Positions 3,987-58,292 of a stretch of DNA of 64,000 nt are shown here, piece by piece. Where the stretch lies: contig CM034594.1 of NCBI GenBank assembly GCA_020091685.1, positions 5,764,903 to 5,828,902 of the forward strand, read 5' to 3'. A program made the position numbers and the translations under genes. Every line of letters begins with the position of its first letter. The stretch's first letter is position 1. Origin of the DNA: Lutjanus erythropterus. Its lineage: Eukaryota > Chordata > Actinopteri > Lutjaniformes > Lutjanidae. The notes beneath the pieces were generated by a model. That model had not been told where the DNA came from. It did no database searches and saw only the letters and a program-made list of their open reading frames with translations.

Positions 3987-6900
3987 CTGGTAAAAGAAGG
4001 AGTTTCTGAAGGCGTTGTTGACGTAGTTGTTGTTTGGCAGACTAGCTGCTATCTGAAGTGAAATGACTGGAGTCTGTTGGAAAAGGGAACAACAATCCAC
4101 ACTTTTTATTATAGTTTGCCCACTGAAGGTCAGCCTGTTGTAAAAGGGAAATATGTCTAGGTATTAATATTACAGAGAATAATTAAAAAAATAAAAATAA
4201 ATATAGTTTAAAACCCCAGAGTTCTCACACCAAAGGCCAAGTCACCTTTGGTTTTTAACTGGGCTGCAGGGATAGTTAGAGGGTTTCCTGTCAGAGAACC
4301 TCAGGCTGCACAGAGGCTCATATGAAATTAAAGTTTAAAAGATAGCTTTGGACCAGGCCACTCAAAGCCTCGGAATTGAAAAGCAAAGGCAATTAAAAAA
4401 GAATGAGCAACAAGGTTGAAAGTAAGAGCAAAACTTTGGCACCAACCAGTTTTAGATTATTCAATGTGTGCATCAGATATAGTCCATGCTGGTAGACCAG
4501 GAACTCTCTGGGATTAAGGACTGACAGGTCCAAAGGGATCAGCTCTCCCTCACACTCCCACTGAGCATCAAGGACATCCAGGAAACTCTTGCCTCTGTCT
4601 GGACAAAACACATAACAGAATGGTACTGTCATTACTGCAAACTCAAACAAAATAAAAATCTTAATGAAACATGTTCATATCGATAGTCAGTGTGTTGCTT
4701 TACAGTTGATCAACATGGTCAATGCAACAGTACAGCTGTGGACAGGGACAGCAGCAAAATATATCAAGGGCACCTAAAAAGATCAGTATCAGTTTAAGTG
4801 TAGACTATATCAAGAATATTGTCAGCACTTGTACCTTGTAGTCAGACAGCTAATTCCAACAGGATACTGCTGTTGTATACAGCTCCACTGGTAAAAACAG
4901 TAACATCTACCACTGCCTGGGTCTGGACATTTGTCTGAGTTGTTGTGTGACTGTGGTGAATCTGAACTTGCCCTTTAAAACACTGAAGTCAAACAATGAC
5001 ACAAACAAACCAATCAAGGCAGCGGTAGACCAGCAACTCCCATATTCTGCAAGGTAAAATGATTGATTTTGCCAGTGGAGTTCAGTTGGTTTGGAGAGAG
5101 CCATATTTGGCTTATATAACAACAGTTTCCATTCAGAAAAGGCTGTCTGATGGCAAAATAAAGTGTTGAAAATGTTCTAAATATAGTGTACACAGGGATA
5201 GCTCACTAAAAATTGAAAATGCAGTCATTATCTACTAACGCTCATGCTGATTAAAGGTCAGGGTTAATTTTAGCCCACAAACCACTGCAGGAGTTTCACA
5301 GGACAACAGCATTGCAGTTGTAAACAATTTAAGTGAATGATGACCAGTTTTCAGACTTAAAAAAGCAGTTCAGTTCTTTTTTTCTTGATCACTATTCACT
5401 TCTGCAATGCTGTTTTCCACTGAAACTTCAGCAGTGTTTTGTAAACTAAAGAACTAAACCTGAACTTCAGTTAACATGAGGGTGAGTAGACAACGACTGA
5501 ATTTTCATTCTTGAGTGAATTTTCCCTTTAACTGATAAGGTATGAGTGTAAAGTGTAGGTGGTCTTTTTTTTCTATTATATATTTTGCTGCTGACTGCGT
5601 CCACAGCAGTGCATTGCTTAGGTTGCACCAGTACTCCTACTACTTCTCCAAACTGCCAACTTCCACCTACTGTAGGTAATACACTGACTATCAATAAGTA
5701 CCTCATACAACCAAACTTAAAACAATCCAAATTATTCTTTTAATGCAGAAAAGTTGTAAAGCCATTTCACTGAAAACTACAAACATCACACTCATGTTGT
5801 CATTAGGGTAAAAGTTGAGGGATCATGAAAGTCAGCAGGCTGCATCCCGTGAAAACTGCAAATATCTGGACAAAATTTCAGCAATCCAACCAATATTTGT
5901 TGAGACATTTTATCTTTACCAGAACAGTGGACCAAAAAATGGACATAACCACACCACTAGTGTAGCAAATAAAAAAACACCAAGATGTATTTTTTCCTAC
6001 AGCCTTTGATAGTGCCTCTAGACAGATCTTATGAGAACTGAATCAAACCCCAGAAACTCCCTGAAGCCAAACAAACTAAGACATGCCTTAACGCTTGAGA
6101 CTCAGAAAATGTCTACCATATGGGTGTAATCAAGGCTCTGGAGAGTGAGGCTGAAAAAACATGCCGTCTGTGCTGAAATCTAAAGAATGCACAGTACTTA
6201 AACAAGGTTGTAATCTGCCCTTTTCTCAAAAGCACACTTTCAAATTATGGGATGCTTATTCAGTATTCATAAATATAAAATACACTCAGAGAAATCAAGC
6301 CTATATTCAAGTTTTTTCCATGTAGGTTTGATTTTGAGCGGAAATATCTTTGATGTGTGTTTTATGCTTGATTATCTATGAATGCATGATGATTATGCTG
6401 TCTAGCGTGTGTGTACAGTTCATATGTGAGTTTCTGCATTGAGTTGGTGCCTGTACATGCATTAATCAAAAAAAGGCAACCCCAAATGTACCCAACCTAC
6501 CAGGGAGCTCTCCTCTAATAAGCCCTGCCCCACAAGCCCAGTCCCTCAACTGTAGCTGCACCCCCTTCAACATCTGGAACAGAGGAGAAAGCACCAGCAG
6601 TTTGCTCCACTCCTCTTCTGTGGAATAAAAAAAAATATGGATGGATGATTAACGTGAGACAACACATCACAAGCTGTAAATGTGTTATATTACATTAGAT
6701 GTTACCTGGAATTGTAGGGACAGAAATGTGCGCAGGCTGAGCAGACTCTTTCATCGGCTGGCTCTCTGTTGGGAAATTAAGATCAGAATTACTTGTTGTC
6801 ATCAAGGGAATAGATCAACATTTGGGGAAATGTTCTCATTCATTTTCTTCCCAAGAGATTAATCATGAAATTGATACCATTCTCACATATGTCTTTTCAG

Positions 6901-9900
6901 TATAAAGCTACAGCCAGTAGCCAGTTGCACACCAACCATGTAGAGGGGGAACGGCTATCCTGGGTTTGCCATAAGGTAACAACATGTGCCTGCCAGCACA
7001 TCTAAAGCATTACAGTGTACTGACTGCAAAAAAGCAAAGTGTAAAAAAAGACCATTTGTGGTATTAAGGGTGTTCTGTGCAGGTCTATGTCAGGTCAGGT
7101 GCAGTGACTCCCTGGAGCCTCCACTGGTTGATGAAAAACTTTGTGCTTACAACAAAACTAAAATATGCCGCTGTTCCCTTCCTACTGTTCCAACTGTCGT
7201 AAAACTTGACATTTTAACAGAGGGCATAAAACACTGGCATAAACACTCTATGTGGTTATTTAAGGTCACATCCGTTACAGGAGGGAAATCATCAGTGCGA
7301 CTCTCTGTGTTGCTCACTTCTATGAACCACTGGAAAACCAGGTTATTTAGGTGTGATGCAAACTTGCAGCAGAAAGAGAGAGCGAGAATGAGAGAAAGCG
7401 CTCACGTGTACAAGCGCAGGACAGGGAGCGTGCGAATATGGACAGAAGAGTTGAAAACGTGATATCAACTTCCTTTGATCATGAAGCCTATCTGTACTGT
7501 AGGATCTTGTAAGTCATTATAATGAGAAACCTTCTCAAAATAATGACAGAGATAAGTCATGTCATGAAGACTCTCAGTCATCCACGTCATTGCATTCGTT
7601 GAAGGGTTATTGCAGGCAAGAGGAATCATCCAAGAGACTACAGTTCTAACTGACTAGTGAGAAGTTTCACACTTTTAACCCACCATTGTATGTGGTGACT
7701 GAATGAACCATCTGTCTACCACACTTAACATGGGCTGACCTCAACCAATCAGATCAAACTCTTGCCGGAGCCAGGTGAGAGAAGAGCAAAAACATTCTTT
7801 CTATTGAGAAATATCCTCAGTGCCGTTCTGTTCTCTTCTTTCAGTGAAGAAACACTCTCCAGTTCTGATATAACTGATGCTATCGCAGTATCTAACCTCT
7901 TCAGGAGCCGGCATTGTTTGTTCGAGACAAGTCGCTCGTAGCTGCCAGTAGTCCCTCCTAAGATGCTGATTGGACCACTCTTAGTGAGGACACAAACAGT
8001 TAACTTGAAGCCAAGATGGATTGTCACATGATCTCATGATCTAGTGAATCCAGCTGCCTGGCAAGATAAAGGTCAGGTGGCCGTGCCTCTAAAAATTATG
8101 AAATTCCAGGCTTGCCCCCTACATTTTGTATGGTGTAAAGTTTCTTTGATAACTTAGTGTCTAGCCATGGTAATGAAAGTCAGCCTACAAGCAAACAGTA
8201 AGACATCAACTTTGTTCCAATTAAAAATGATAAAATTAAGAATACATTCATTACTCTCTAGCCAGCTTGCCAAGTTAAAGTTATTGTTGCAATGTTCAGT
8301 TTAATTCATTTGAAATCAAAACACAAGAAAACATTGGTGGGTAACATAGCTAACTGGAAAAGTGTGTGTTTTCATTTAGTTATGAACAGTGTGTGTTTTG
8401 GTGGTTACACTGGGAGTGTTTGGCTATATTGCGAGGCAGCTGGTTTGTGTCCATTTATGTCCACACCAAAAGTGGTGCGGCAAATCAGCGCCCTAGGGGG
8501 GACTATTGGCAGCTACAGGCATGGTATTAGGTGTGACAACAGTGAGAGTGGATGCATGGAAATGACTTCTCTTGAACAAAAGATGGCAGCTCCTGAAGAG
8601 GTTAGCATAGATACTGCAATTGCATCAGTTACATCAGAACTGGAGAGTATTTCTTCACTGAAAGAAGATCAGAGAGCAGCACTGAAGGCACTTCTCCATG
8701 GAAAAGATGTTTTCGTTCTTCTCCTGATTTATTTTGGCAAGACTTAGATGTGACTGGTTTAAGTCCAATCACCTGCCAAGTGTTTTTTTTTTTTTTTTTT
8801 TTTTGGAAAGTGTCTACCCTTTTTCAAACAGTTTCTAAGGACAGCTTAGTGTTTGGTGGCTGCAAACAAAATCTTGTTCAAGGTCACCAAAATCCTGTTT
8901 TTACACTTTGGTTTTTGTACTTTTAGAGAGAGCCAGTCTCGCTTTGTCCCCCGACCTACACCCCCATTTTGTACAGATAGAATCATGAGCCTAAATTCCT
9001 TCTATGTGTATGTATGGATGTGTTAGTGTCTCTCTGTCCTTTCCTGGATATCTATCACCAGAATCTAGCAAAGAACATGCAGTGGGTTCATACAGTGTAG
9101 TTTGCTCACACACAGCACTGCACAGAGCACAACACAGGAAAACAAGGGTGAAAGGGGTCTACTTTCAATACTACATCATTTGTGTAGGATCTTACCCTGG
9201 GAGTGGACACCAGAGGACGCGGTGTGTCTCTGTGAGTTGTGTGTGGGTGCTGAGCTGGCCTGCAGACACATGTCCTGGGATTGAGCTAAATGAACAGGAT
9301 CCCTCAAAGACTGGGTGGAGATTCCTTCAGAAACACAAACTGTCAAAGAACTTTTAAACAAAACTGAGAAATGGAGCCAATTCGTGTGAAAAAGTAATCT
9401 CCTCAAGCAGCTGTGAGGCTTTGAGCTTTTGGAAATTTAGTTCTCTACAGACCTTAGACACATTTTGTTGAATTAATGCATTTTACTTTAGGGGGCTATA
9501 GTTTTGATAGAAACATGAACTATTGCTTTCTCATTGTTAAACTTGCCCTAGTGGTTTCTGTAGCTGCACATATGCAAGCTATGTCCTAGGATAAGCAACA
9601 TTATATTCAACACTTCAACACAAATAAAAACCTGATTTTTCACTAATCTTCTTCTACTCCATTTCTAACAAACAAGAAAAGAAACATAACAACAGCCTGG
9701 GGCTATTTCTTACCCCTTGACACATCAATATGCTGAATTTCTACCAGCATAATGTCTGCTTCCCTTCTCACTGCTCTATCCTGCTGCGTTTTAATACTTC
9801 ACATGCCTTCTACACACATATAGACATTTTATCACAGGGCTTGAGTGGCTTTACGTGCACATACCTTTCACCACAGGCACAGATGCTGTCCAGACTCTAG

Positions 9901-9939
9901 AGGCTGCCTCCAACCCATACGCCTGCTTTGTTGACAAAC
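3987..9939 (-). CDS. Exons 26-31 of the large gene: C-terminal region seen so far (residues 1422-1628)
   Basis: Exons at 9865-9939, 9196-9324, 6706-6765, 6501-6617, 4447-4598 and 3987-4073. The small exons 26-29 are all phase 1-1 and of low complexity (Ser, Thr, Gln, His rich), which suggests a flexible linker. Exon 29 is helical. Exon 30 has an acidic W-E-C-E-G-E-L segment. Exon 31 ends S-F-F-Y-Q on a donor (GTAAAC). If that intron were kept, 34 more codons would follow before TAA at about 3882, but they look non-coding. I could not find the true terminal exon in 1-3900; it may lie outside the window. Exons 26-28 are the least certain because they are short. Confidence 0.65.
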
Positions 9940-12900: not shown

Positions 12901-15900
12901 TAGAAACAGTTGCAAGTTAGGACGTTACTGTAATACAAATAACACACACTGAATATCCTATCATGTATTTGTACCCCTATCATGTAGCTAATGTTGTACC
13001 CCATTCTGGCAGTGAGTCAGTACCAGAGATGTGCTGATGGCAGGCGCTGGGGGAGAAACTGGCAGGCTGTTTGTCTTCCAGGAGCTGGTTCAGTCTCTTC
13101 AGCAGAGGCAGAGCAATCTGTTGGAGCAAATTCACGATCTTCACAGCTGGTCTGTGCACACTGCAGTGGACCAGACCATATTCCTTATACCAAAAGTTCC
13201 CACACAGTACTGCCTACACAAACAAGAAAGAGGGAGGAAGTTCAGAATAACATAAAAGAGATAAACAAACTTCTAGATAACTCTCTATAATTGTGCAATT
13301 AAGCAAAGTTTCCTTAAACAAAATTAGAGAGTTAATGATGAAAAAGACAAACAAAAAAGAGCCATCCACCTCTCTACCTCATATAACTCGGTTTATTTAT
13401 ACTCAGTGTTATTTATGCAGTGTGTCAGTGCGTGTGTGTTGACCTGAGCGGTGTCAGCACGGAGCCGAGAAAGTTGTCTGACAAAGTGCAGCGCGTTAAG
13501 AGCAGCCTCCAACTCCGTCTGTGTGGAAGAACACTGCTCCCACAACTCTCTCTGTCGCAGCTCTCTGTCCTGCAGGACGAATAAACACAGAAGAGGCGTA
13601 AAGACTTATTTACATTTAGATGACAGAGTTACAGAGAGCATCTCACAGCACAGAGCTATAGCATCAAGAGTCATACACATCTAGCACTGGTGGTCTGAGA
13701 GGGAAGAGAGCATCTGCCCTAAATGTGCCAGTCACCAATTAAAGGGATAGTTAGATTTATTTGAAGTGGGGTTGTATGAGGTACTTATCTGTAGTCAGTA
13801 TTTTCACTGCTTTACTTTGCCCTCAAACAGCCTTTTTGAGGGGAAACTATCGTTATAGCCACGTCTGGGAAAGATACTTTAAAAATGTATTCCAATACAG
13901 TTACTAACTACCTGTTAAATGTAGTCACTAATGTAATCCAAGTATCACAACACTTAAATAATCTAACTTGATTCCTTTCCATTACTTTTAAGTTACCTCA
14001 TTATAAAATATGGCTAAACTGTTAAGCCTAATATAATGCATTGCAACTAACTTTTATTTTCATTATTGATTAATTGGTTGATCATTTTCTCAATTAATCA
14101 ATATGTTGTTTGGTCCATGAAATGTCATAAAATGGTGAAAAATGATGATCAAAGCTCAAGATGATGTCCTCAAATGTCTTGTTTTGTCCACAATTCAAAG
14201 ATAACCAGTTAGTCAGAGAGGAGTCACAGTTGAGTCAGTTGAAGAACACGTCCAAACATGTCTGTGCTCCACGTTTGCTCCACCTATTTTCCAGTCTTTC
14301 CTGTAAAAATTATTTTCATTATCGATTAATCTGTCGAACATTTACCGCATTAATCAGTTAGTTGTTGGGTCTATAAAATGTCAGAAAATGGTGAAAACAT
14401 TTGCTGCGTGTTTCCTAAAGCCCAAGATGATGTCCTGAAATGTCTTATTTTTTTCCTCTACCCAAAAATATTCAAGAGAGGAGTAAAGAAACTAGAAAAT
14501 ATTCACATTTAAGGAGCTGAAATCCAATTTTGACTTTTTTCTTACAAAAATACTTTAACATTTATCAAAATAGATGAAAAATTAATTTAATAGTCACTTA
14601 ATGTTATATTTATTGTTGCAGGTCTAAGTGTTTTATGTTCATTGTTAGGTTTATTAGTTTGTCTAACTGTCCCTTCCTTTACTGTGTGTAATTTATTGAT
14701 TGATTGAAGACAAAAAAAAGTTGAAAAATTCCAACCAGTGAAGTTTTTTTAGCTAGAGGCCATGATAATGAATTGGCAGCTGTGAGTCCACTGCACATGG
14801 TAGTATATCGTTCTTTATTTTAAAATTGTAATCCCACCAATACTCTCCATTTTTACTAAATGTGTCTGTAATCTGATTATGAATGAATGAATGAATGAAA
14901 CCTTTATTGATCCCACAACGGGGAAATTCCATTCGGTTACAACCCGTCCCAGAGGACACAAAAGCACAAAAGACAGTACAAATAACTGACATGGGAGGAC
15001 AGGGACAGGAGGACCACGATGCAGCCAGCCCTGAGCGGCGCCTCGCTTACTTAGATGAAAAACAAATGAAAAACAGGAGGGGAGGAAGAGGGAAAAAAAG
15101 GCAGATCCCAGACTATGTACCTGATGAGGGGGGACACAGTGTGGGATCTGGAAAAAAAACACCTCAGCACAAAGCAACAGTTAAGACATTATAACAAAAC
15201 TCGAACACCTGCACATGTGGGTGGGGGGAGGAAGTGGGGGGGGGGTCACAGCGCAGTCGCCCAGGGGAGGGCTGCAGCTCCTACACAGGGCGCTGCCCTC
15301 AACCTTCGACTACTACGCCGCACGGGGGAGGGATTATAAATTTTTGTACATGTAACTTTAATGGAATACAGCTACCTTTGTTGTACCCAAAATATGTAAT
15401 CCTGTTACATGTAATCTATTACTCCCTAAGCCTGGTTATCATCAAATGTAGGACCTATTGTTTTTTTTTTAATTTGATGCTTTGAAGTATCCAGGTCTTA
15501 GGAAATAGTTTTCAGAGCTTTTTTGTAAATTGATGTAACAGTTTCATTGTTGTTGTTGTTATTGATAGGAAAAAAATAGACCATAAAGCCATTATCCTGA
15601 CCATAGCTTGGAGGGTTGTAGCCCAGTCTCCTCCCTGTGTTATCCATTTTTCTTGGTCTTGCTGCAGCTGCTCCAAACACACATCCACCTTATCAAGGCC
15701 TGACATGAGCTCTGAGTGCCAGACACACTGCTGATCCCACTCCTCCCCGTCACCTAAACACACAGACATACACAAAGACACGCTGCCAACCCAAATAAAT
15801 ATTGAACATTGAAATTATGGTAATTGCTATCCAACGGAAGGATGCAATGTGAGACGCTGGCATGAAGCATCTCTCTTTTGGAAAGCGATGAATATAACCG

Positions 15901-24900: not shown

Positions 24901-27900
24901 GATTGTAATTATTTTGATTAGAGCAGCAACAATTAATCAATTATCAACTATTATTAAGTATCACCAATCATTCTGATAATTGATTAATCAGTTTGAGTTT
25001 TGGTTTTGTTTATTTATTTTTTTCTTACCTAAAATTTTAGCTTCTGAAATGAGAATATTTTCTGGTTTCTTTGCTCCTCTACGACCATAAACTGAACATC
25101 TTTGGGCTGTTGACAAAACAAGACATTTGATGATGCCAACTTGGTCTTTGGATCTAATTAAAAAGTTAACAAAATGTAACAGTTTTGCTTGTTAGCTAAA
25201 AATTTAGTTTTGTCAGCCCACTCATGCTCAGCAGAGAACACGTCATAAAACTCATTTGATTTTAGTCTTTCCCTTAACTTTCTGTGAGGAACTTGAATAT
25301 TTTTCTCAATCCTTTTCAATGAGGCAACTGTTTCAAAAGTGAAACCTCCTTAAGTATAAGGTTTAAGTTAACTGGAGTTTAAAATTTTTGTGCAACAGAA
25401 TTCAATTCAATTCAAAACTGAACTCAGGGACAGTTTAACTTCAATCGCTCTTAATTTCAAACTAGTTTAAAAGTTTGGTGCAACATCATTTAAGGAATAT
25501 TTCTGTTTTGTGCAACTGGCCCCAGGATTTCCCTTATTTTTTATAATGAGATAATGGGAGACGTGCAGTGTGATGTAATGTACAATGTAATATGATGTAA
25601 ACCTGTAGCTGACTGTCGAGCAGAATCCTCAGCTGTGATGCTAAACTCTTTCGTCGCACCACCTCCCTCTCCACCTCCCTCCTCATCCTCTCATAACCCT
25701 CCCCCATCCTTTCCTCAGTGATCAGGTGTGGGTGGAGTAGCTGCAGTTTCCCAAGCACCCCCTGGTAGAGCTCCTTTACCTGCATACACACAAACAAACA
25801 CTTGTTTGAAAGAGAAACAGATTAGATAGTGAGTTAATAGAAATAAGTAGTAATCAGATCACATATCTGACCCCACCGCAGTGCAGCTAGCGCACAACTA
25901 ACACCGGTGAGACAGGCACGTTTATGGGATGACATAGGGGTGTGAGATGAGCCGTCTCCCATTACATCTTTATCGCCTCAGCCATCCTGAGGGCTGTAAC
26001 AACAATCTCTATCTCCTACACTGCAGCCAACAATTTAATGGAGGGGCGAGAGAGAAGCGTGACAAAAAACAGAGGCATTCCAATGAGACACCCAAACTGT
26101 TTCACCAGAGCTGAACTTCATGAGTGAAGAAGTGAGATTGGATTGAACCAATGCTTGTGAGAAATGAGTTTATATGACAAACTCTATGACTACAATATCC
26201 AGTCTCGGAAAACAAAGTGCTCCTCCTGCCTTCCTCCCCTGTGTTTGGACAAACTGAAACCAGCAAAGTTGATGAAATACAGTATCTACCCATAAACAAT
26301 GTCATCTAACGCCTAGCCTGAAGCTGACATGATACAAATACATTTTCAGTATACTTACAGGCTTTTCATGCCTTTATTTGATAGAGACAGCTGAAGTGAA
26401 TACAGAAAAGAGTAAAGACGGAGGGGATGACATGCATCAAAGGGCTATAAACTGGGATTGAACCCATGACCCAATGGGGGGAATAGGGGGAACTGCATTC
26501 CCCATGTTAACAAAATGACCAAAATGTATCCCTCTTGTTAAGCTGCTTTCCCCTATTGTTCATCCCTTAGTAGCAGAAAGAGTGAAGGGCTGAGGCATTG
26601 TTTAGTTGAATATGTAAGCCCAGTCTGCCTTATTCATTGATCTTTTGTCTGGCTGACATTTAAAAATTAGATTGTATGGCCCTGACCATATTATTAAAGT
26701 AGTATTATTAAAAAAAAATACAGTGTGTTAGTTGCAGATGAATAAAATGAACTGGGGTCAACCTGTTAAAAATGCACAAATCACTGATTGATTATACCTC
26801 TGTAATAACACACATGGAACTATTAACTATTCAACCAGTGAGAGTCACACAGAGGCCAACTAATTCCCTAGAGATCACTTTATCATATTATCTTGGACTA
26901 TGGGCCGCCCTAGAGGGCAATTTATCATGTTTTATCTACCACAGTGGCAGCAAAGAGGGCACTTTTGCTGTGTGTTTTTTCATGGGGGCACCAGGGGGCG
27001 CAATCACTGTGATTCACTGTGATCACTTCGGTACCTATAGGTCCCATTTTCATTTAGATATCTTCGTGTGAGAGGTCAAGGGATCCCTCTGAAAACGGTC
27101 ATACCAGTAATTCACTCACTAACTTTAGCCTAACTTTGGAGCGTTATGTGCTGCCCTTCTCGACAAGCTGGAAAGGTCTTCAAGTTTCACATGACACCAG
27201 TATCTTTACTCTAGCTTTAAAGCTGAGGCTCTTAAAGTCTCAGAGAGACAAAGTAATGCCGGGCGCAGATGTTGAAGAGGCTAAAGGGGCTTACTTTCTC
27301 TGAGAAAAGAATTACATGCATCAGAGTGTGCGTGACAGAACAGAGGGGGTAGAAGTCAATCCTTTTGTTTTGCATTTAAACCAGGAGCTACAGACCTCAG
27401 TGGTGAGCTGTCCCAGCCGTGTGGTGACAGACAGACTCTGTTTGAGCAGCAGGCTGTAGAAGGTGTTGCTGCTGAAAGCCTCCAGATCCACCTGGTGTTC
27501 ATAATCCCAGAACTCCTCCAAGGAGTCTGCACAGACTGCTGTAAGAAGAGTGAAACAAAAAGAGAAACACAGAGAGGGAGATCAATAGCATATTGAAAAA
27601 AAGACATTAAAAATCTAAAAGCTCTGTCTGCAAGAGGACTTGTAAGAGCAAGCATGCCAGAGAAAGATCAACGAGTCTGAAATCCACAAGCGACATCACT
27701 CACATACCTGCATGTTTTTGCACAGCCACTCTCATGTTCATTTGTGGTGTGCACTTTTATGACAGTGATGTTTGAACATCAGAAGCCTTGATAAATAGTT
27801 CCATTTTTTATGCCACAAAATACAGACACCACCACCAGTTTGGTGGGACAGTAATGATTGAAAGGGATTATGAGTCTAGGCATGGATTTTTTTTAGGAAA

Positions 27901-28417
27901 CTGTTGCACATTATACCTTTTATGTAATGTTAAAACATAAAGCTAAACAGTTCCTTTAAGTCTGATAATGTTAAGTTGTCATGACAAAGACATCTCAAAC
28001 AATGTCACCTTTGCATTAAATGGTCATAAACATGAGTCTTAATGAATGTTTATGACCCTTCAATTTAAGAGCTACCAGAAAATTCTACTCTTTATGTTCT
28101 TTAAATAATAGCCTATGTCTTCTTTATGACACTACTGAGAGGTCAAATGACGAACAACCCTATGTAGCAATAAAACTCACCATGTCAAGATGATGTAATT
28201 TGAGGTGATTTCCTATGTCCTGTGACATTTGGACTGTTGTTATTGTTACTGCACATCACTGCACGTGATATCAGGTGTATGACAGGAGCCTTTCAACAGT
28301 AATTGGTTGGGTGGGAGCAACACCCAGGGGTCACTGTCAGTGTTACATAAGACGTCACAAGGGTCTTCAAAGACCAAAGTGTCAGTGTGTTTTTGTCTGT
28401 ATGTAAGATGGTATGTA

Positions 28418-28475
<58 letters not shown>

Positions 28476-31400
28476 TGTGTGTGTGTGTCTGTGTGTGTGT
28501 GTGTGTTGCACTGCAGGTGCATTCACTGATGTGTTGAAGATTATGTTTGAATACAAGTTACATAACATTTTGGCCCCTAGGCTTTCAAATGAATGAGCTT
28601 AGTGGTCCGTGTGTGTGCGTGTGCGTGCATGCGTGCATGCGTGCATGCGTGCGTGCGTGCGTGCGTGCGTGTGTGTGTGTGTGTGCATGTGTGTGTGTAT
28701 GTGTGTTGCACCTGGTTGAATGGAGTCTTGTGTCATTCTAGCTTGTTGGTTTCTGTGAATCTTCCTCAGTGAGATCACCCTTGAACCTTTAGATGAGTAG
28801 TCGTCCATATGGTACGCCAACTGCAACAAGCGATACCGTGCTCTGATTGGCTGCTTCTCAGGCCATCCATATTCACGGAACAGGATCTATACAGGGGCAG
28901 TGTACTCAAAAATCAAAAAGAATATATATCTTCCCCCTTTCAAATCTCGTCCTTCTTAAATACAATGGAACTAGATGGCACTTGTGGTGCTCATTCAACT
29001 ATTATTAAACTATTTTCTTTCAACCAAATCACTGTGCAGATTAAACCTGCATGCATCTAACTGGAAAGAGGCTTGTGCTGACATGCTAATATGGGATGTC
29101 ATCCATGAGTAGATGCTTGCTTCCCTCTGTACTATGATTCAGCTGGTGGGTGTAGTTCAGCAGTAAGTTTGTTCCTACATGAAAGGTATTCAATTATTTT
29201 GCATAACTGGGTCATGATTTCTGGAAAAAGACATTGCTGTTTTTGCTATTTTTTGGTGCGCTAAACACCACAAGCCAAGGGCCATATAGTTCCATTACAT
29301 TCAAGAGAAGGTAGACATCTTTATGGCCAATATTTCTAAACTCTGCAACTCAAATGAACTGTCCCTTCAGTGAGACAGTATGTGTTTGTATGTGTGTGAA
29401 TGTACACTAACCAGCAGTGTAACACATAAGCAGAGGATGACCACAGCTCCAAATAGCAGTCCTCCGGTCACCAGCCAATCTGGCCTCAGTAAGAGGTTGC
29501 GTCTCCTGGTGATTCCCACCCTGATCACATGACGAGGGATGGTGGGGAAGAAAGGACCGGGCTCATAACACTGGCCGCCTACAGGCATCACCCGCACATA
29601 CTAAGTAAGAACAAAATCACAAGGGTCAGTTTGGGGAACACATTGATTTAATACAGTACAGTTTTTTAATAAATGTATAAAAAATTATATACTCATATTT
29701 CTATTACTGGATGGACTTCAGTAAGGTAACAGAAACACACGGTGTTTTGGTGATCAGTGGTCCAATAACAGTTGAGCAGGCTTGGTACCTGGCAGAAGCT
29801 TTCTCCTTTCCTGTTTTCTGCATAGTCACATCTTAGCTAATGTTAGCAAAATACCAGAAAACAAGTTAGTTAACAATTGATGTAGATTAGCTAGCTACGT
29901 AGAACTGTCAGTGAACCATAAGTCTCACATTGCCACAGTGCTGCAGAAAGGTCTGACTCCATGCATACACATTCTGCTATAAGGGAAAAAAAATACCATC
30001 TTGTTTGAATTTCTTTAAGTCAACCACAAACATCTCAGGCAGCACTAAGCCCAAGATGTGGCAACGGTGCTGCCGAAAAATAGGATTGTGGGGGAACTTG
30101 TTTTGGTGGAACATTTGCATGTCAGGAGGCTAGCTCTGGTATTACAAAGACTACACTGCTGCAAATGAAAATATAACAGCTTGTTTACATTCGTATTATT
30201 AGCATCCTAAGCATGAATTTGCTGTTTTCAGTGTGTAGGTTGCAGGAGGAAGTTGTTCTTGTTTACTGGGGACTTTGAAATCATAGTTAGTGTTCGCTGC
30301 AATGCCGTTTAAATAAGCCAATTGCAGACTTATATTCACAGTGTCCATCCAGTGAGTCAGACTAGTTGAGCACAGAGCAAAAAGGAGCGGGACGTAGGAC
30401 AGGTCAGTTTACCACAGTTTGCAACACACTGTCATTTATGGCTGAGACTCCCTAAAAACTTGGTATTTCACCCAGATGGGCGTGGTTTTGCAGGATAGAG
30501 CAATGCACACTTCTACAAGCTCCGTGACTGTCTCTGCACATGCTCTGAGTTTACACAACATTTCATACATTGTAGTATTAAGTACAAGTATTAAGGCATA
30601 CAGATTATACAATTTTTTCCTGTAACTTGTAAATTTGGTCTTATGTACATGGAAATTGATAGTCTGCCTTGTGTGCCTTTTTTTGGCATCTATTGATGCA
30701 AGATACTAAATTCATTGATACTAGAATACAGACAGCCCATCTAAATAGATTTTTTGTTGTTGGACATCATTTTTGTTGTTGTACATAATTTAGTTAGTCA
30801 ATATATATTAGTTCTGATGGTCTGTTTGAAATTACAGGTACTTTGTAAGGTCTCTTGTGCCTTTAGACATGGGTAGTATGGCAAAAAAAAAACCTTCAAA
30901 CAATGGCTGAACAAATGGTGGATGTGTTTCTTTGAAGATAGGAATTCACTGTGCAATTTGGTGAGGAAAAACTAGACCACCTTTAATCCTTGTACTATTT
31001 TAAATTCATTTACCAAGTGTTTGTGCTGATGGCTGCTCAGTGTGAAAACATACACTCCAGGCTGGCTAAAGACCACTGAAAAGAAGCTGGGAGGAGTCCA
31101 AGACAGAGTCAGCTCCTCTTCTAGCTGTCTAAATGCACCCCAGTCAAATTGACTGTTTGTGTTGTACAAGTTGTCACTGAAAGACAGAAAGTGAGGCGTC
31201 AAAGACAGTCAAAAAACACAGATGCCTGGCAGTAAAAAACAAGAAACATCTGACTTACAGATCATACTGAGGATAGTGACGTGTGTCGACAGTGAACAGT
31301 ATAAAGTCACCCAAATGGAGACATGCTGTTGGGTTCAGAAATCCTGTTATTTCTCTCACATCTTCTGTCACGTCTCTCTTGTTTCCCCTCCTGCTGCTGG

Positions 31401-34400
31401 AGTTCATTTCTCGGCCACCATCAACTTCACTGACCTCCCACGGATCATCAATGTCACTTTCTAGAAAACAAAAGCACAGGATCTTCATTTTCAATCACTT
31501 GTGTACATGTGTGAAGACCTGAAGAGTGTCACTAGGTCACAAGTGATCAACAACTGCCTCAGTTTGAAAATTTCAGCTCAGGCCACTGTATCTGTGGGAC
31601 AGGTTAGTGTTTTATCTGGAAATTGCGGTGGCATTGCAGTAGGTGCCTCACAATCTCTTGCCTGGCAGGGACCTGCGCTCTACTTTGTGCATTCTTCTAG
31701 CTTATCATGCATTCATTCATAGTGTTTATCATAGCATTAATTGTGATTTAATGATGAAAAAAAGATTGTTTTGTTGTTTGTTGTGACAAACCAGCTGAGC
31801 TCTGAGTGTCCCACTGGGTGGTGACAGGAAACAGTTGCTGAAGCTCCTTTGGGAGGCCGCTGAGGATGCCAAGGAAGCCTGCCTCTGCAGTCAGACAACA
31901 AGAGAGACGAAGATGTGAGAGACAAAGACAGACAGTAGGGTCACTTTGTGTGCCATGCGAGTGTGCCTGTCACCACCTGTTGTCTGAACAATGTAGACAG
32001 GATGTGAGGAGTTGAGATGGCTGCTGCACAGAAGAGTCCCCTGGGGATCCCACTGTTTAAAAACTGTCTCCAGCACACTGCCAGAGATGCCCGACACCTG
32101 CACACACACAATGACAGTGTTTGCCATTAATAGGTCACCGCAACACAAGAGACGCTTGTCTTGTTCTTTCACTGCCGCTGCAATAAAGACAACATTGTGT
32201 GAACGTTTTGTATGCACTGTCTCAGCAGGTAACTGTTCATTATGTTTACTCTGTGACAGTTTCAGTGGAAACACGTATGGGTATAGATATCAGGATCGGG
32301 TGGAACACTTCTCCAGTACAGTGGGTTTTAAAATACCTGAGAGCAATTATTTCTTTCAGCTTTCTTTCAGTATTTCTTCCTTTTGTGCATGAAAATGTTC
32401 AAATCTGCAGCTGCTTTTGCCCACCTGACTGTCAAAGCTCCACACCAGCTCCATCTCTCCATCGGACTGGCACTGCAGCTTCAGCTCAGTAGCTGCTCTT
32501 CTCCTGCATAGGCCTCCACATGCAGCTCTTCTAGGAGGCTCTCTACAGATGCACAAACCCAGCTCTCCATCATAACCCCGGTAGTCCTCTGCAGATTGAC
32601 ACACCTGCAGGAAAGCAAAGCAAAGCAGATAAAGATAGATCAGATACAGGCTTTATCTAATCCTTTTTGACAACGAGCAAATATTACATTTTTTATGTCT
32701 GTGTGTATTTTTGGTAACACTTTCTATGAAGACCACATCTACAGTACATTATGGGGGTGTTCATAAGGAATTACAATGTATGTAGAATACTTTATAACTG
32801 CATTCATGAACACACATAATGCTTTCTTATGTGCATATATCAACAGCCAGATTTACAATGACTTAGTTCAAGTGTCAACATAGAGATATTGAGGAGTGAT
32901 GAACAAATATCTTAGACCCCCTGTCAGAGCCTGCAGGTGGATGCTGGGGGTGGTGGTGGGGCTGAATGAGCAGGCAGTGACGCTGGTGCAAGGCAGCAAT
33001 GGCACTGACAGGCAGGGGGAGAGATGGGAGGTTTTACCGCCAGATTAGAAGGGTGCGTTTGGTATGTACTACAGAGAATGAGGCGTGTCACTTGTGATTG
33101 TGGTGCAGCTCGAGTTGACTGCCTGAACTCGCTCACAGGCGTCGCTACATTTGATTTCATGAGGTGTGTATTGTAGTACAGGTATACTTGCCAGCCTTGA
33201 GACCTCAAAAGTAGGGAGGATTCGAAACCAAAGTTGCATTTTGATGACTTTTGGTGACTTTTAGAGACTAAAAATAACTAAAGAATAAGTACACGGCAGC
33301 AGCATTTTTAGGATAAGGGATAAATGATACAGAACTTGTTGCTCATCTGGCATAAACCAGTATATATTTTTTTAGTTTTCTTTCATTAGTTTATTATTTG
33401 CCCAGCCCCTTAAAGAAAACTGACTTGACAGATTTTACAAATGCCTGCCCCTTTCCTTTAAAACCTTTTGTAAGGAATGGGAATTCTTCTTTCCAGAGAG
33501 CTTGGTTTGGTATAGCTATATTGTTGTCTGTGTGGAAACAGTAGACCATTGAAGTTGCAAAGATGACACACTGTGCAGTGCCAGAAACAGGTTGTGATAA
33601 TAAGAAAGTAAAATAAAAGGTGTGAAAATTTGTTAGAAATCCAGAGAAATGCAGGAGATTTGTGATCCCAGAAGGAAATAGAAAGAGGAAAATAAGTATT
33701 TGGCAGATAGTTGTAATGTATAGTAAGCACTTGAATTTATAATTCATTATAAGTCACATTTATAATGTTTCATGACTTTTGCAATCATGTGCTATAGAAG
33801 CTGTTTTCATAGAAAGTGAAACTGTATTTTGTAATTTAAAAATCATCTCATGCTCGGTGTGACCGTGTAACTAGGTGTAAGGTCATTTGTAGCAAAGACT
33901 GCTATGGAGGACAGGGACAGAAATAAACACTGCGTGGATAGGACAGTGAAGGTTTTGCTAACTGACAGTCAGAGGAAGCACTTTGTGGTTAAATATTAAA
34001 TGAGACTAATACGAATCTCTACTGGATAAATAGGTTCATGGAGGAAAGGGCAAAGACATGTTGGCTGTACTCATTAGCCCTGTCTGTGATAGTGGAGTGT
34101 GTTTTGTCAGTGTGTTCTGTAAACAGATCACAGTTTACTACTTTATCTTGTTTCTGTATCAAAATATTCTTGCATCATTCAAACAAATGTTTTTATTGTT
34201 TTATGAGAGAAACACTAATGACCTTTGCTCTACTTTAGTGTGTGCATGTGTGTGTGATATGATTGCACAAGTTGTAACCTGCTGCCTGCAGTGAAGTGAC
34301 CACTGATATCTGTCCAGACAGTCTCCGTACTGTGTGCGTGTTTTCCCGTCTCTGCAGACATCGTACAGTTTGTGTACACACGCATCTCTGTTGTTGGAGG

Positions 34401-35939
34401 GTTGGTACCCGATGGTACAGTGGCAACGGCCATCACTGGTCTGCAACAAGAAGCAGCTGGGTTCAAACATTGTGTTGTATAATGATATATGGTTCATATG
34501 GTGGTCAGGGTGTTACCTAATATGCCATGGCCGCTGCTGGCCATCAGGGTGCCCTAAGTGTAATTGACCCTTCCAAAATCCCGCCCCTTTTTGCTCTGTG
34601 CTTCAGTAACAGTTGAGAAAGCTTATTAAAGCTTTTATAGTACTAGGTAACCATTTCTGACCACTCAAGAATTAATAAAAATTGTCAAAAATCTCTCCAA
34701 AATACCAAATTAAGACACAAAGGCCTTGTTGCAGGTTTGCAACAAAGGCTTGCAACAGGTGAATTAGGGACTGTACACAAACATCCATGCAACACTCAAA
34801 AGAAAAATCTCATTCACTTTAGTATGAGCTGATGAGTGGAGGACTCAACACGTGTACAAGCAGCAACAGACTAAGAAACAGGACCCCGCTGCGAGGGAAC
34901 CTGATCTCGAGCTCTTTCAGCTTGAAGCTACAGATTCTTCAGTCTAACATTTCAGAGAGACAGTGAGGAAGCTACTCTCATATTAGTGTGCACAATGTTT
35001 CCCAGGACTCAAGAGTGACACAAAAAATCATAGACTCGAGAAATTAGAGATCTGCTCTGGGTTTATAGAATAAAGAAGGAGCTCACAGGACAAAGGAAGT
35101 GGGTGACTGGAGAAGTAGGAGGTGGTGGTGATGATATGAAAACTACACGGTCACATAAACAAACATGCTGTAGGAATGACTGTGTCGATCCCACCATCAT
35201 GTGAAAACACATCGTCACCTGGAAACTCTGACCCTCTCCCAGGCAGACGCAGGAGTCCTGACCAGACAGAGGCTGTTGTGCCACAGGGCCACAGGGCAGG
35301 GGGGCAGACAGGGCTGATTGAGGACAAAAGTGGTGAGGAGGACATTTCAGACAGCTGTCTATGGACACAGCACCTGCAGTTGGCCCATAGGTTCCTTTAG
35401 GACAGGGCACTGGAGTGAAGCTCCCCAGAGGACAGTAGAAACCTGTCAGGAAAAAAATATTGTGCTTTAATATACAGTTTTATATATTGTTTTTTATGAT
35501 GATTATTATACTGTATTAATGTAGAGAGGAGTTAACTATCTACACTATACTGCTTTTCATTTTGTTCTAAAAATATTTACTGCAAAACCACTGCCAATAC
35601 GATGGCATAAAGGACTTCATATAACTGCTAGTGTGACCTTTAAGAATGAAAAACCTCTGCTCTGATGGACGCAGAGGAGAGATACAGTTTATGAAACTAT
35701 CTGTGAAACTCAAAACAAAAATTAATAACATAATGAAAGTGGCTAAACGTGTGCAGAAAATTCTTATGATGTACTATTGGTCTTGTATATTTAATGGTCA
35801 TGCTATAAAGGATCATTGTGTGCAGTCAGGACAGCATACCTGGCTGGCAGGGTGACGTCTCCTGGAGCTGTTGATTCAAGTTGTTTCCATGAACCAGACT
35901 GAGGAGCCACAACACACACCTGAAACTCTTCATCTGCAT
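3987..35939 (-). CDS. Large single-pass membrane protein with GCC2/GCC3 Cys-rich ectodomain and DPxTG-repeat/coiled-coil tail (31 exons, 3' end not seen)
   Basis: I do not recognise a named orthologue. Chained coding exons: 35840-35939, 35219-35442, 34279-34440, 32425-32604, 31977-32097, 31792-31884, 31259-31460, 31014-31176, 29412-29600, 28712-28886, 27396-27538, 25603-25779, 24678-24808, 24447-24604, 23462-23689, 22367-22705, 22130-22278, 21325-21574, 19244-19414, 18716-18873, 17355-17495, 15957-16098, 15602-15753, 13444-13569, 13024-13213, 9865-9939, 9196-9324, 6706-6765, 6501-6617, 4447-4598, 3987-4073. Every junction is GT-AG and the phase never breaks, giving 1628 codons without a stop. 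The start ATG (35937-35939) has G at -3 and opens a signal peptide. The order is signal peptide, Cys-rich ectodomain, possible cupredoxin-like fold, membrane span at about residues 458-481, then a long inner tail. The last exon ends on a good donor, so at least one further exon is expected at lower coordinates. Boundaries are by eye; the exon at 21325-21574 has the weakest acceptor. Confidence 0.85.
5191..5541. repeat. MITE-like element with ~60-bp terminal inverted repeats
   Basis: The left end ACAGGGATAGCTCACTAAAA matches the reverse complement of the right end (TTGAGTGAATTTTCCCTTTA). The similarity continues inward through the TCATTATCTACT / AGTAGACAACGA blocks and ends at the CTCATG / CATGAG motifs. 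A tail-only fragment of the same family lies at 59889-59940. It sits in the intron between exons 29 and 30 of the large gene. Confidence 0.65.
7755..8005 (-). pseudogene. RecQ-helicase-like N-terminal fragment (inverted arm 1)
   Basis: The minus-strand frame encodes D-T-A-I-A-S-V-I-S-E-L-E-S, S-L-K-E-E-N-R-T-A-L and then N-V-F-A-L-L-S-P-G-S-G-K-S-L-I. This is the order of a RecQ-type Q-motif followed by a Walker A loop (consensus G-x-G-K-S). Only the start of the helicase core is present and no downstream motifs follow. Such fragments are common in fish repeats. It lies in the intron between exons 27 and 28 of the large gene and mirrors the copy at 8465-8745. Confidence 0.6.
8465..8745 (+). 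pseudogene. RecQ-helicase-like N-terminal fragment (inverted arm 2, damaged Walker A)
   Basis: The plus-strand frame has M-A-A-P-E-E-V, D-T-A-I-A-S-V-T-S-E-L-E-S, S-L-K-E-D-Q-R-A-A-L-K and D-V-F-V-L-L-L-I-Y-F-G-K-T, then a stop. It is clearly related to arm 1 at 7755-8005, but the Walker A glycines are lost. The shared sequence begins upstream at a block like GGGACTATTGGCAGCTAC, which also occurs in arm 1 in the opposite direction. Confidence 0.6.
8779..8804. repeat. Poly-T tract
   Basis: About 25 consecutive T residues just downstream of the helicase-like fragment on the plus strand. Confidence 0.9.
10636..11548. mobile_element. Non-autonomous hAT-type element with 8-bp target site duplication
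   Basis: The left end (CCAGGCGCGG...GGGTGGGCCC) matches the inverted right end (GGCCCACCCA...GGGGCCGTGCCTG). Flanks are GTGAGAAC on the left (10628-10635) and GTGAGAGG on the right (11549-11556), an 8-bp duplication with two differences. An 8-bp duplication and a CAGG-type terminus are known hAT features. The 0.9-kb interior shows no transposase frame. It lies in the intron between exons 25 and 26 of the large gene. Confidence 0.7.
13024..17495 (-). CDS. Exons 21-25 of the large gene: second helical/coiled-coil region (residues 1172-1421)
   Basis: Exons at 17355-17495, 15957-16098, 15602-15753, 13444-13569 and 13024-13213. The translation is rich in Gln, Glu, Arg and Leu. Examples are H-W-Q-Q-Q-R-Q-R-E-E-D and D-R-E-L-R-Q-R-E-L-W-E-Q. 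Conserved-looking tryptophans (W-S-G-R-Q-L, E-E-W-D-Q-Q, N-F-W-Y-K-E) recur about once per exon, suggesting a repeated helical hairpin of about 45 residues per exon. Splice sites are good and the phases (0-0, 0-1, 1-0, 0-0, 0-1) join without breaks. No known domain was recognised. Confidence 0.78.
13742..13862. repeat. Interspersed repeat (AAAGGGATAGTT ... GCTTTACTTTGCC)
   Basis: Shares its start, AAAGGGATAGTT, then TTGTATGA(A/G)GTACTTAT, and its end, TTTCACTGCTTTAC(C/T)TTG, with 45717-45960. The copy at 45717 has extra sequence in the middle. Confidence 0.55.
14040..14625. repeat. Dispersed ATTAATC-type repeat, two part copies
   Basis: Contains TTGATTAATTGGTTGATCATT, GGTCCATGAAATGTCATAAA and GATGATGTCCTCAAATGTCTT, and then much of this again about 240 bases later. 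The same modules (AATGTGAATATTTTCT, GGACAAAACAAGACA) are at 24920-25145, 40664-41000 and 55220-55475. It is a well-known type of fish interspersed repeat; the family name is not asserted. Confidence 0.65.
14881..15340. repeat. Interspersed repeat beginning (GAAT)n-CCTTTATTGATCCC
   Basis: A (GAAT)n tract is followed by CCTTTATTGATCCCACAACG and GGGAAATTCC, a phrase found at the 3' ends of many fish retroelements. A GC-rich tract with G runs follows up to about 15330. The open frames here are not supported as genes. Confidence 0.5.
16240..17035. repeat. Long copy of the ACTCAAGTA-end repeat with an internal AAGACATAA array
   Basis: The ends resemble the 3460-3850 family (TATTGTACCTAAGTAGATTT on the left; AGTATTGGTACTTCTACTCG on the right, then GCCATCTCTG). 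The middle (about 16565-16750) is a run of loosely repeated units of the type AAGACATAAYAAGA(T/C)G. Confidence 0.55.
18716..23689 (-). CDS. Exons 15-20 of the large gene: degenerate DPxTG-type repeat array split by a helical exon (residues 740-1171)
   Basis: Exons at 23462-23689, 22367-22705, 22130-22278, 21325-21574, 19244-19414 and 18716-18873. A short motif recurs: D-P-V-T-G-L-I-R-P, H-P-Q-T-G-R-V-M-P, D-P-E-S-G-V-P-V-P, H-P-E-T-G-L-V-Y-P, D-S-R-T-G-N-V-V-L, D-P-V-T-G-A-V-L-P, E-P-L-S-G-R-M-V-R, D-P-V-T-G-V-L-A-P. Each is followed by a Gly-rich or hydrophobic strand. The spacing (roughly 15-40 residues) suggests small beta-hairpin repeats. Exon 18 (residues 979-1061) is helical and interrupts the array. 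Exons 15, 16 and 19 are phase 1-1, which fits growth by exon duplication. No named domain was recognised. Confidence 0.8.
21680..22010. repeat. AT-rich intronic minisatellite, ~60-70 bp units
   Basis: The phrase ATGAAAAATTATGT(C/A)ATT followed by AATTCAGAAAAA(A/C)AG recurs about five times with decay, spaced roughly 60-70 bases apart. It lies between exons 18 (21325-21574) and 17 (22130-22278) of the large gene. Confidence 0.65.
23070..23200. repeat. Tandem duplication of a ~65-bp unit
   Basis: Two adjacent copies of ATTTCTTCCAGTT(G/T)TGTGA, then CATTGAAAAAATG and GTCAAGGA(G/C)AACAAAAC, in the intron upstream of exon 16. Confidence 0.75.
24447..28886 (-). CDS. Exons 10-14 of the large gene: juxtamembrane basic segment and first coiled-coil region (residues 479-739)
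   Basis: Exons at 28712-28886, 27396-27538, 25603-25779, 24678-24808 and 24447-24604. Exon 10 follows the membrane span and is rich in Arg and Lys, as expected on the cytoplasmic side. Exon 11 has an acidic, aromatic start (E-E-F-W-D-Y-E). Exons 12-13 are strongly helical, rich in Glu, Arg and Leu (for example R-M-R-R-E-V-E-R-E-V-V-R-R-K), and probably form a coiled coil. Exon 14 ends with the first C-P-D-T-G element of the repeat array described in the next block. The 5' splice site of exon 10 lies directly beside a long CA/TG repeat. Confidence 0.78.
24825..24852. repeat. (ACAGA)n microsatellite
   Basis: Five to six copies of the pentamer, located just upstream (minus-strand sense) of exon 13 of the large gene. 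Confidence 0.85.
24920..25145. repeat. Dispersed ATTAATC-type repeat copy
   Basis: Contains AACAATTAATCAATTATCAA, AATGAGAATATTTTCTGGTT and TTGACAAAACAAGACATTTG, in the same order as the copies at 14040, 40664 and 55220. Confidence 0.65.
28421..28507. repeat. (GT)n microsatellite
   Basis: About 40 GT units with a few C interruptions. Apparent Cys-Val open frames here are artefacts of the repeat. Confidence 0.95.
28607..28706. repeat. (GT)n / (GTGC) compound microsatellite next to a splice donor
   Basis: GTGTGTGC, then (GCAT)n and (GTGC)n, then (GT)n. In the minus-strand gene it starts about 6 bases inside the intron, after the exon-10 donor at 28711. Confidence 0.95.
29412..32097 (-). CDS. 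Exons 5-9 of the large gene: membrane-proximal ectodomain, possible cupredoxin-like fold, transmembrane helix (residues 223-478)
   Basis: Exons at 31977-32097, 31792-31884, 31259-31460, 31014-31176 and 29412-29600. Residues about 338-425 have a beta-strand pattern: C340, then L-H-L-G-D-F-I-L-F-T-V, and later Q-P-G-V-Y-V-F near 399-405, followed by H410, H412 and H414. G-D-x-(I/V)-x-F and P-G-x-Y-x-F are hallmarks of cupredoxin-like folds. The copper-ligand cysteine is not obvious, so metal binding is uncertain. Exon 9 then has a basic T-R-R-R stretch, R-P-D-W, and about 22 hydrophobic residues (L-V-T-G-G-L-L-F-G-A-V-V-I-L), a single membrane span. Orientation is presumably type I, given the signal peptide. 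Confidence 0.75.
29750..30420. repeat. Long copy of the GCTAGCTAG fold-back repeat family
   Basis: The left end reads TCCAATAACAGTTGAGCAGG. It is followed by TTAGCTAATGTTAGCAAAAT and TGATGTAGATTAGCTAGCTA. The right end has AGTTGAGCACAGAGCAAAAA and GGAGCGGGACGTAGGACAGG. These match the copies at 42630-44740. It lies in the intron between exons 8 and 9 of the large gene. Confidence 0.6.
32425..35939 (-). CDS. Exons 1-4 of the large gene: signal peptide and Cys-rich GCC2/GCC3-like ectodomain (residues 1-222)
   Basis: Exon 1 encodes M-Q-M-K-S-F-R-C-V-L-W-L-L-S-L, a typical secretory signal, with likely cleavage near residue 18. Exon 2 (35219-35442) carries the pattern C-P-x-G-T-Y followed by C-x-K-C-P-P and F-C-P. 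This spacing is characteristic of GCC2/GCC3 (ephrin-receptor-like, TNFR-like) cysteine modules. Exon 3 (34279-34440) adds C-x-C-x-x-G-Y, as in EGF-like turns. Exon 4 (32425-32604) is again Cys- and Arg-rich. Junctions between exons 2, 3, 4 and 5 are all phase 0, so these modules could be skipped or duplicated without frame loss. Assignment to the GCC2/GCC3 family rests on motif spacing only; the ligand is unknown. Confidence 0.8.
34575..34640. repeat. Left-end fragment of the fold-back repeat family
   Basis: CCGCCCCTTTTTGCTCTGTG, then CTTCAGTAACAGTTGAGAAA, matches the left terminus of the copies in 42630-44740. The rest of the element is absent. Confidence 0.55.
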
Positions 35940-36715: not shown

Positions 36716-37187
36716 ATTCTCAAGTCATCAAATACCAACATCCAACTGGCTTTCAAATGTCTTCAATGCACAGATTTATTAATAGGACTGGGTGTTGCAA
36801 TCCCTGAAGATTCAGCCATGTACTCAGCTGAGTGGGGCTGTTCTTGGAGGTGACCACTAGGTTATGTGAAGCTACCAGTATGACACATCACCAGTTGAGG
36901 ACCTTGACGTCATTAGGTGTTTCAGCCTTTCATCAAAAAACACCCTCAGTCAAGACGGGCCCAAACCAGGTTGATTAGATTTGGTTGTATGACTCATGGT
37001 TGGCCTCTAGATGACGTCATATGTGGCTCTGATGATGAAGCTCAGCATATTGCAATGGAATAAATAACAAACAAGATGGACAAAGGTGTTTATTCTTAAA
37101 CTTAAGGAGCACTGTGCAAGTGAAACCCATCTGCAGCGTATCAGACACACCAGGCTTTCCGCATAACATAGTAAAGTGTGAGAAGTT

Positions 37188-37296
37188 GGATGGATGGATG
37201 GATGGATGGATGGATGGATGGATGGATGGATGGATGGATGGATGGATGGATGGATGGATGGATGGATGGATGGATGGATGGATGCATGGATGGATG
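37188..37296. repeat. (GGAT)n microsatellite
   Basis: About 26 tandem GGAT units with one interruption near the end. The Met-Asp-Gly-Trp frame here is a repeat artefact. Confidence 0.95.
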
Positions 37297-49292: not shown

Positions 49293-49326
49293 GCTGTCTG
49301 GAGGAGGCGCAGTCAGACTGATGAGT

Positions 49327-58182: not shown

Positions 58183-58292
58183 CTGTAACACACAATTTAA
58201 ATCAAAACATTTTCACATTTTCTTACCATCAGAATTACTTTAAGTTCAAGTAAGTTTAATCTTGATTTGTTAAAACAAAAGTCACACCTCAG

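Follow-up and report, generated by a model that had tools for sequence, protein, structure and literature searches.

Large proteins that join GCC2_GCC3 modules to long helices have been published from invertebrates, namely from Hemichordata (3906 residues), from a mollusc and, as CBY10027.1, from a tunicate (PMC4132317). The accessible part of that account brings these giants up because their helical C-terminal regions match random analogues as well as synaptonemal proteins; it considers assembly errors and mentions neither a membrane span nor DPxTG repeats (PMC4132317). The gene considered below can be likened to them by description only, as a combination of GCC2_GCC3 modules with long helices. 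The preliminary description of this DNA had stated that such modules with long repeat tails are better known from invertebrates and protists; the same part of the source bears this out for invertebrate proteins with helices, but not for the rest (PMC4132317). Eph receptors and other PF07699 proteins show a weak likeness in one cysteine module, which stays below the family cut-off. Eph receptors have a kinase and other Eph domains, whereas none of these was reported in the gene studied here, and assignment to this family finds no tyrosine kinase domain in the Pfam search.

The gene lies in a stretch of 64,000 nucleotides, C4:5764903-5828902 of the host genome (937.6 Mb, 444 contigs), which is called the window throughout. 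To judge by the size of the genome, its repeats and the neighbouring genes, the host is probably a fish. Genes were modelled with our own splice/codon model, in which the codon table and splice weights were set by hand. On the minus strand it gave an exon chain of consistent phase that starts with an ATG at 35939 and ends with a splice donor at 3987. The free-ended minus-strand model of the region 3901-36050 (31 exons, 1547 residues) scored 216.3, and forcing the chain ends to 35939 and 3987 gave an identical score of 216.3, while the plus strand of the same region reached 55 and first-order Markov shuffles (n = 8) gave 0.3–7.6. The same stretch reversed without complementing scored 121, and composition therefore accounts for part of the chain score. 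The exon count depends on the settings (30, 38 and 43 under other intron penalties), and under default settings the initial run placed a gene boundary between 22118 and 21562, which left two genes in the region.

The model was refined by hand from comparison with a giant gene of the same chromosome, described below. This comparison exposed one shortened and one missed exon; lengthening of exon 7 and addition of exon 8 closed the gap between ectodomain and membrane span left in the first model. After refinement 32 exons with 1635 residues lie inside the window; their phases close and internal stops are absent. Compared with this model, the chain of 31 exons and 1628 residues proposed earlier had exact ends and unbroken phase, but a slightly different count. 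It was also a real chain, yet an incomplete gene: position 3987 is a splice donor, and three exons and the stop lie beyond the window. With host flanking sequence the full model comprises 35 exons and 1789 residues, ends with a stop, and all its phases close. The terminal exon was picked by hand because a free run of the gene finder ran on into the neighbouring gene. Weakly supported are exons 17, 18, 24, 26, 27 and the last two beyond the window. The exons are listed below, those of the flank in window numbering carried on leftward and hence negative.

Exon 1: 35840..35939, minus strand, start codon at 35939 and signal-like N-terminus (donor score 3.5)
Exon 2: 35219..35442, minus strand, GCC2/GCC3-like cysteine module (Pfam PF07699, 16.2 bits, cut-off 23.1)
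Exon 3: 34279..34440, minus strand, cysteine block common to the giant gene (model and giant alignment)
Exon 4: 32425..32604, minus strand, cysteine block common to the giant gene (model and giant alignment)
Exon 5: 31977..32097, minus strand, ectodomain (refined model)
Exon 6: 31792..31884, minus strand, ectodomain (refined model)
Exon 7: 31259..31460, minus strand, ectodomain and first half of membrane-proximal domain (hand-extended after giant comparison)
Exon 8: 31014..31176, minus strand, second half of membrane-proximal domain (hand-added after giant comparison)
Exon 9: 29412..29600, minus strand, juxtamembrane segment and membrane span (hydropathy 3.13 over 19 residues)
Exon 10: 28712..28886, minus strand, start of tail (refined model)
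Exon 11: 27396..27538, minus strand, helical coil (heptad test, giant match)
Exon 12: 25660..25779, minus strand, helical coil (heptad test, giant match)
Exon 13: 24678..24808, minus strand, tail of helix-like composition (refined model)
Exon 14: 24447..24604, minus strand, tail of helix-like composition (refined model)
Exon 15: 23462..23689, minus strand, DPxTG repeats, block 1 (repeat analysis, model)
Exon 16: 22367..22705, minus strand, DPxTG repeats, block 1 (repeat analysis, model)
Exon 17: 22130..22278, minus strand, DPxTG repeats, block 1 (weak donor, -2.5; place of the gene break in the first run)
Exon 18: 21325..21574, minus strand, tail of helix-like composition (weak acceptor, -0.6)
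Exon 19: 19244..19396, minus strand, DPxTG repeats, block 2 (repeat analysis, model)
Exon 20: 18716..18873, minus strand, DPxTG repeats, block 2 (repeat analysis, model)
Exon 21: 17355..17495, minus strand, tail of helix-like composition (refined model)
Exon 22: 15957..16098, minus strand, tail of helix-like composition (refined model)
Exon 23: 15602..15753, minus strand, tail of helix-like composition (refined model)
Exon 24: 15209..15280, minus strand, short and doubtful (splice and codon scores only)
Exon 25: 13444..13569, minus strand, tail of helix-like composition (refined model)
Exon 26: 13000..13213, minus strand, tail (weak donor, -1.3)
Exon 27: 9865..9939, minus strand, doubtful (missing at the strictest intron penalty)
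Exon 28: 9196..9324, minus strand, tail (refined model)
Exon 29: 6706..6765, minus strand, tail, short (refined model)
Exon 30: 6501..6617, minus strand, beginning of conserved C-terminal domain (giant match)
Exon 31: 4447..4598, minus strand, conserved C-terminal domain (giant match)
Exon 32: 3987..4073, minus strand, conserved C-terminal domain, ends at donor (donor score 2.6)
Exon 33: -1477..-1331, minus strand, host flanking sequence
Exon 34: -1848..-1648, minus strand, host flanking sequence (acceptor score 0.0)
Exon 35: -2167..-2051, minus strand, terminal exon with stop, hand-chosen (acceptor score -1.0)

Some predicted proteins may continue past the last window exon in much the way the flanking exons do, which hints at unnamed predicted orthologues in public databases. 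Several simple or mobile sequences were registered in the window as well. Two arrays, TGGA at 37187-37312 and TG at 28420-28506, give false repetitive reading frames, and a dispersed repeat at 600-1035, presumably of a type typical of teleost genomes, produced false exons in the gene finder. Two similar opposed fragments (7749-8033 on the minus strand and 8262-8747 on the plus strand), in which an apparent helicase-type ATP-binding sequence was noticed by eye, are perhaps remnants of mobile elements within an intron.

The window gene is real and codes for a membrane protein with one span, which has no close relative in the protein libraries searched. Its N-terminus looks like a signal peptide. 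The ectodomain occupies residues 1-462, before the sole strong span, and the hydropathy of this span (3.13 versus 1.75 and 1.54 for the next best segments, both inside repeats) agrees with the single membrane passage expected from the preliminary description. There are 25 cysteines in the 462 residues of the ectodomain versus 26 in the 1308 residues of the tail, and two N-glycosylation motifs in the ectodomain. The cysteine module at approximately residues 34-72 matches PF07699 with 16.2 bits and an E-value of 0.0093, so that the likeness to GCC2/GCC3 reported earlier can be kept as a weak match, but one below the curated cut-off of 23.1 bits. Genome-wide, PF07699 gave 19 matches, none of them in the window gene or in the array of the giant. 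From residue 336 to the span extends a membrane-proximal domain with a sequence pattern that we take to be reminiscent of cupredoxin. The Pfam search with it returned only MGAT4A_C (E 0.26), and the search of PDB sequences with a two-row profile gave Nup58 as the best match (E 0.58), which is not credible; the two-row profiles taken together had best E-values of 0.58 and 1.8.

The tail of approximately 1300 residues opens with a helical coil (residues 540-625). Two blocks of DPxTG repeats follow among helix-like stretches, and from residue 1517 a conserved domain forms the C-terminal end. In a simple heptad test of nine tail stretches, among them both repeat blocks and the C-terminal domain, this coil alone clearly beat shuffles; the coiled coils ascribed to the tail are thus upheld for residues 540-625, but the other eight stretches do not clearly exceed shuffles. 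The repeat blocks begin near residues 735 and 1044. Nine units were selected by motif, with a tenth motif match left out, and in a leave-one-out procedure five of the nine beat 95% of shuffles, the remaining values being 0.05, 0.11, 0.23 and 0.31. Within the protein every left-out unit came 9th or 10th, immediately behind the eight units used for training or one rank further down. At the codon level the DPxTG pattern occurs seven times in the window versus 1.24 expected, with four of the seven in repeat exons or at an exon edge, and all seven matches of the repeat part (472 residues) in the host genome at E ≤ 1 fall inside the window gene. The repeats pointed out earlier are real, though their units were chosen by motif and only the said five pass this level. 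Comparison of the repeats with PDB sequences gave nothing credible (best E 0.11), and fold prediction for one repeat exon (pLDDT 38) was too poor for a fold search, as was that for one C-terminal exon of the giant (pLDDT 49). Kinship of the C-terminal domain with zincin metallopeptidases is a guess. Its HExxH motif is not there, the aligned place being occupied by HCLTH in the window gene and QSMAH in the giant, and since zincins require HExxH, an active peptidase is unlikely.

Neither Pfam nor NCBIfam nor PDB sequences contained a credible family match for the window protein, and kinase, death, SH2 and PDZ domains were not reported in these searches either, both in line with what had been noticed from the sequence at the outset. 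NCBIfam, searched with four pieces of the protein, returned a single match that is not credible (E 0.85), and PDB sequences gave none for the ectodomain and none for the C-terminal domain. No relative was confirmed among viral contigs (164 residues of the repeat part, 6 peptide patterns, 13 stretches) or among prokaryote genomes (the 1547-residue model, 6 peptide patterns, 4 stretches), both searches being shallow because so few patterns were used. The best-ranked papers of a literature search, covering mostly non-subscription literature, held no recognisable description of the window gene.

A relative was found in the host genome itself. A search with the N-terminal part of the first model (496 residues) yielded 42 matches, of which 10 lie in its own gene and 32 elsewhere, and all 32 fall on the plus strand of C4:5448052-5512148 (64 kb), ten with E ≤ 1e-3 and the best with 7.5e-10. 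They belong to an unnamed giant gene on the plus strand of C4:5448052-5521921, approximately 240 kb from the window gene. The C-terminal domain had eight matches, six in its own gene, one at C4:5521571-5521921 (6.6e-5) and one elsewhere (0.71). The membrane-proximal domain had seven, three in its own gene, two at C4:5515202-5515695 and two elsewhere (1.5 and 3.0), those in the giant having E-values of 9.6e-4 (C4:5515426-5515695) and 0.12. For both domains alike the giant locus is therefore the best match outside the gene itself. Reverse searches were weak. The membrane-proximal domain of the giant found the window gene with E 0.39, after an unrelated-looking place on C24 (0.29), while with its C-terminal domain the window gene was absent at E ≤ 10 (four matches, two of them the giant itself). 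The tool may be the cause, as it goes on to score no more than the top candidates from a loose first pass, and since the direct comparisons are strong, the odds of kinship are left unchanged.

For these comparisons our own exon model of the giant, made from 10 kb, was used; the start of the gene lies outside this segment. The plus-strand chain there has 16 exons and 771 residues (19 and 797 under a laxer setting) and codes for the end of the cysteine array, the membrane-proximal domain, a span, a coil and the C-terminal domain. Identity between the two proteins was 37/115 in the cysteine block (z 13), 53/144 in the membrane-proximal domain with span (z 34, calculated without the span), 13/46 in the coil (z 9) and 44/139 in the C-terminal domain (z 22). 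These four blocks are collinear, with an identity of 28–37%, and each scored above 1000 of 1000 composition-keeping shuffles. Pairwise BLASTP gave 2e-07 for the part from ectodomain to coil and 1e-12 for the C-terminal domain. One can suppose that the genes are unrelated and that the match arises purely from cysteine-rich or helical composition. Taken by themselves, the cysteine and coil blocks might indeed reflect such a bias, and the weak reverse searches would agree with it. However, the z values of 34 and 22 belong to the membrane-proximal and C-terminal blocks, which are not rich in cysteine and not simple coils either, while all blocks lie collinearly at one place in a 938-Mb genome, and such a coincidence is strongly disfavoured and extremely improbable.

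Thus the window gene is not the isolated orphan it had seemed, as the linked giant carries the same five parts in the same order: cysteine block, membrane-proximal domain, span, coil and C-terminal domain. Judged by sequence, it is a shortened relative of a far larger and equally unstudied membrane protein. The giant has a long array, with at least 32 places matching the cysteine module, whereas the window gene has one GCC-like exon and a cysteine block. The DPxTG repeats are a feature of the window gene: their part found no match in the giant at E ≤ 1, and the codon-level pattern was counted zero times in 10 kb of the giant, which says little at an expectation of only 0.2. The tail of the giant, within the 10 kb examined, is shorter than that of the window gene. 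Among ten window introns on aligned residues a single one is matched within six residues by a giant intron of equal phase, so either the split is old, or introns turned over, or the giant model is off.

Could the chain nevertheless combine two adjoining genes, one for a membrane protein and another for a separate tail protein, fused by the model? The break of the default first run at 22118-21562 and the weak join of exons 17 and 18 speak for it, but the giant matches both sides of this break in the same order, on one strand and within 10 kb, and the phases close across all 35 exons. We therefore hold such a fusion to be highly improbable. Slightly more weight, though still little, may be given to a decaying copy of the giant that no longer codes for protein. 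Decay would fit the absence of the array and the uneven splice-site scores; against it stand a model of 1789 residues without internal stop or frame break and with a stop at its end, and coherent tail repeats that have no match in the giant. With high confidence, then, the locus can be identified as an intact-looking gene for a predicted membrane protein of approximately 1789 residues, a diverged paralogue of the giant. It would have the frame of the giant, with the array lost or never gained and the repeat tail gained or kept, and the best reading makes it a compact representative of a family of membrane scaffolds that is still uncharacterised.

The anatomy of the protein suggests how it may work. 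The signal-like start and the cysteine bias would place the cysteine-rich head outside the cell, where it would bind matrix, coat or a neighbour cell. The helical coil would pair chains, and the repeats with the C-terminal domain could hold cytoplasmic partners, so that the protein would link the surface to the cell interior as a scaffold, with no enzyme of its own. Such a role is proposed because no catalytic domain was found, and as a mechanism it is plausible but tentative. A true signalling receptor, with an ectodomain that binds a defined ligand and a tail that then recruits signalling proteins, would have a suitable layout in the cysteine-rich head and single span. It is nevertheless unlikely: no catalytic or known adaptor domain was reported in the tail, and the repeats and helix-like stretches give the impression of structural elements. 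Taken as a whole, one intact-looking gene that is the diverged paralogue of the giant and serves as a surface scaffold is the best explanation, and it is probably correct.

Both genes belong to one neighbourhood. From low to high coordinates follow the giant, a 7tm receptor, an ankyrin-repeat kinase, a ZP-domain gene, a TPR gene and the window gene, and beyond it an apolipoprotein-like frame, a ZP-domain gene, coiled-coil frames, a C-type lectin and a protein kinase. Domains of the neighbours were taken from Pfam, and the neighbour gene models run some genes together. We take the 7tm receptor to be DRD2, the ankyrin kinase to be ANKK1-like and the TPR gene to be TTC12-like; ZPLD1, layilin and SIK2 are presumably the names of further neighbours. 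The ZP-domain gene inside the window (45182-49327, minus strand) has ZP-N and ZP-C matches (PF00100, 2.8e-24) and is presumably ZPLD1-like. Another ZP-domain gene (PF00100, 1.8e-07) lies approximately 36 to 68 kb to the left of the window (C4:5.70-5.73 Mb) and is adjoined by very long threonine/serine-rich exons, mucin-like by eye. The frame at 41416-42330 on the plus strand is apolipoprotein A1/A4/E-like (PF01442, E 1.9e-11, 44.4 bits, cut-off 90). At 56341-58196 on the minus strand there are long repetitive coiled-coil frames, for which the best Pfam match, DUF842 (E 0.0012), like all others is not above cut-off; they represent either a gene or a transposon remnant.

The cluster NCAM1-TTC12-ANKK1-DRD2 is conserved in 22 vertebrates (PMC7177674), and the flanks of DRD2 have been described in jawed vertebrates (PMC5900934). 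In the accessible parts of both accounts the window gene is not named (PMC7177674, PMC5900934), and this absence from published descriptions of the cluster is a hint that mammals may have lost it.

A broader picture, in which giant membrane proteins with cysteine arrays form an old animal family that persists here as a gene pair around DRD2-ANKK1-TTC12, appears somewhat doubtful. According to it, one gene would have kept the outer array, while the window gene would have exchanged the array for a long inner tail, whose repeat type is absent from the libraries searched and which ends in a possibly inactivated metallopeptidase-like fold, and the pair would possibly be missing from mammals. Through its likeness to the giant, an orphan gene becomes one of a pair with testable anatomy. 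Since no Pfam model was found for the membrane-proximal and C-terminal domains, a profile made from the pair would be useful: with it one could follow the family across animals and learn whether it disappeared from mammals. Should that be so, fish could reveal what such surface scaffolds do.
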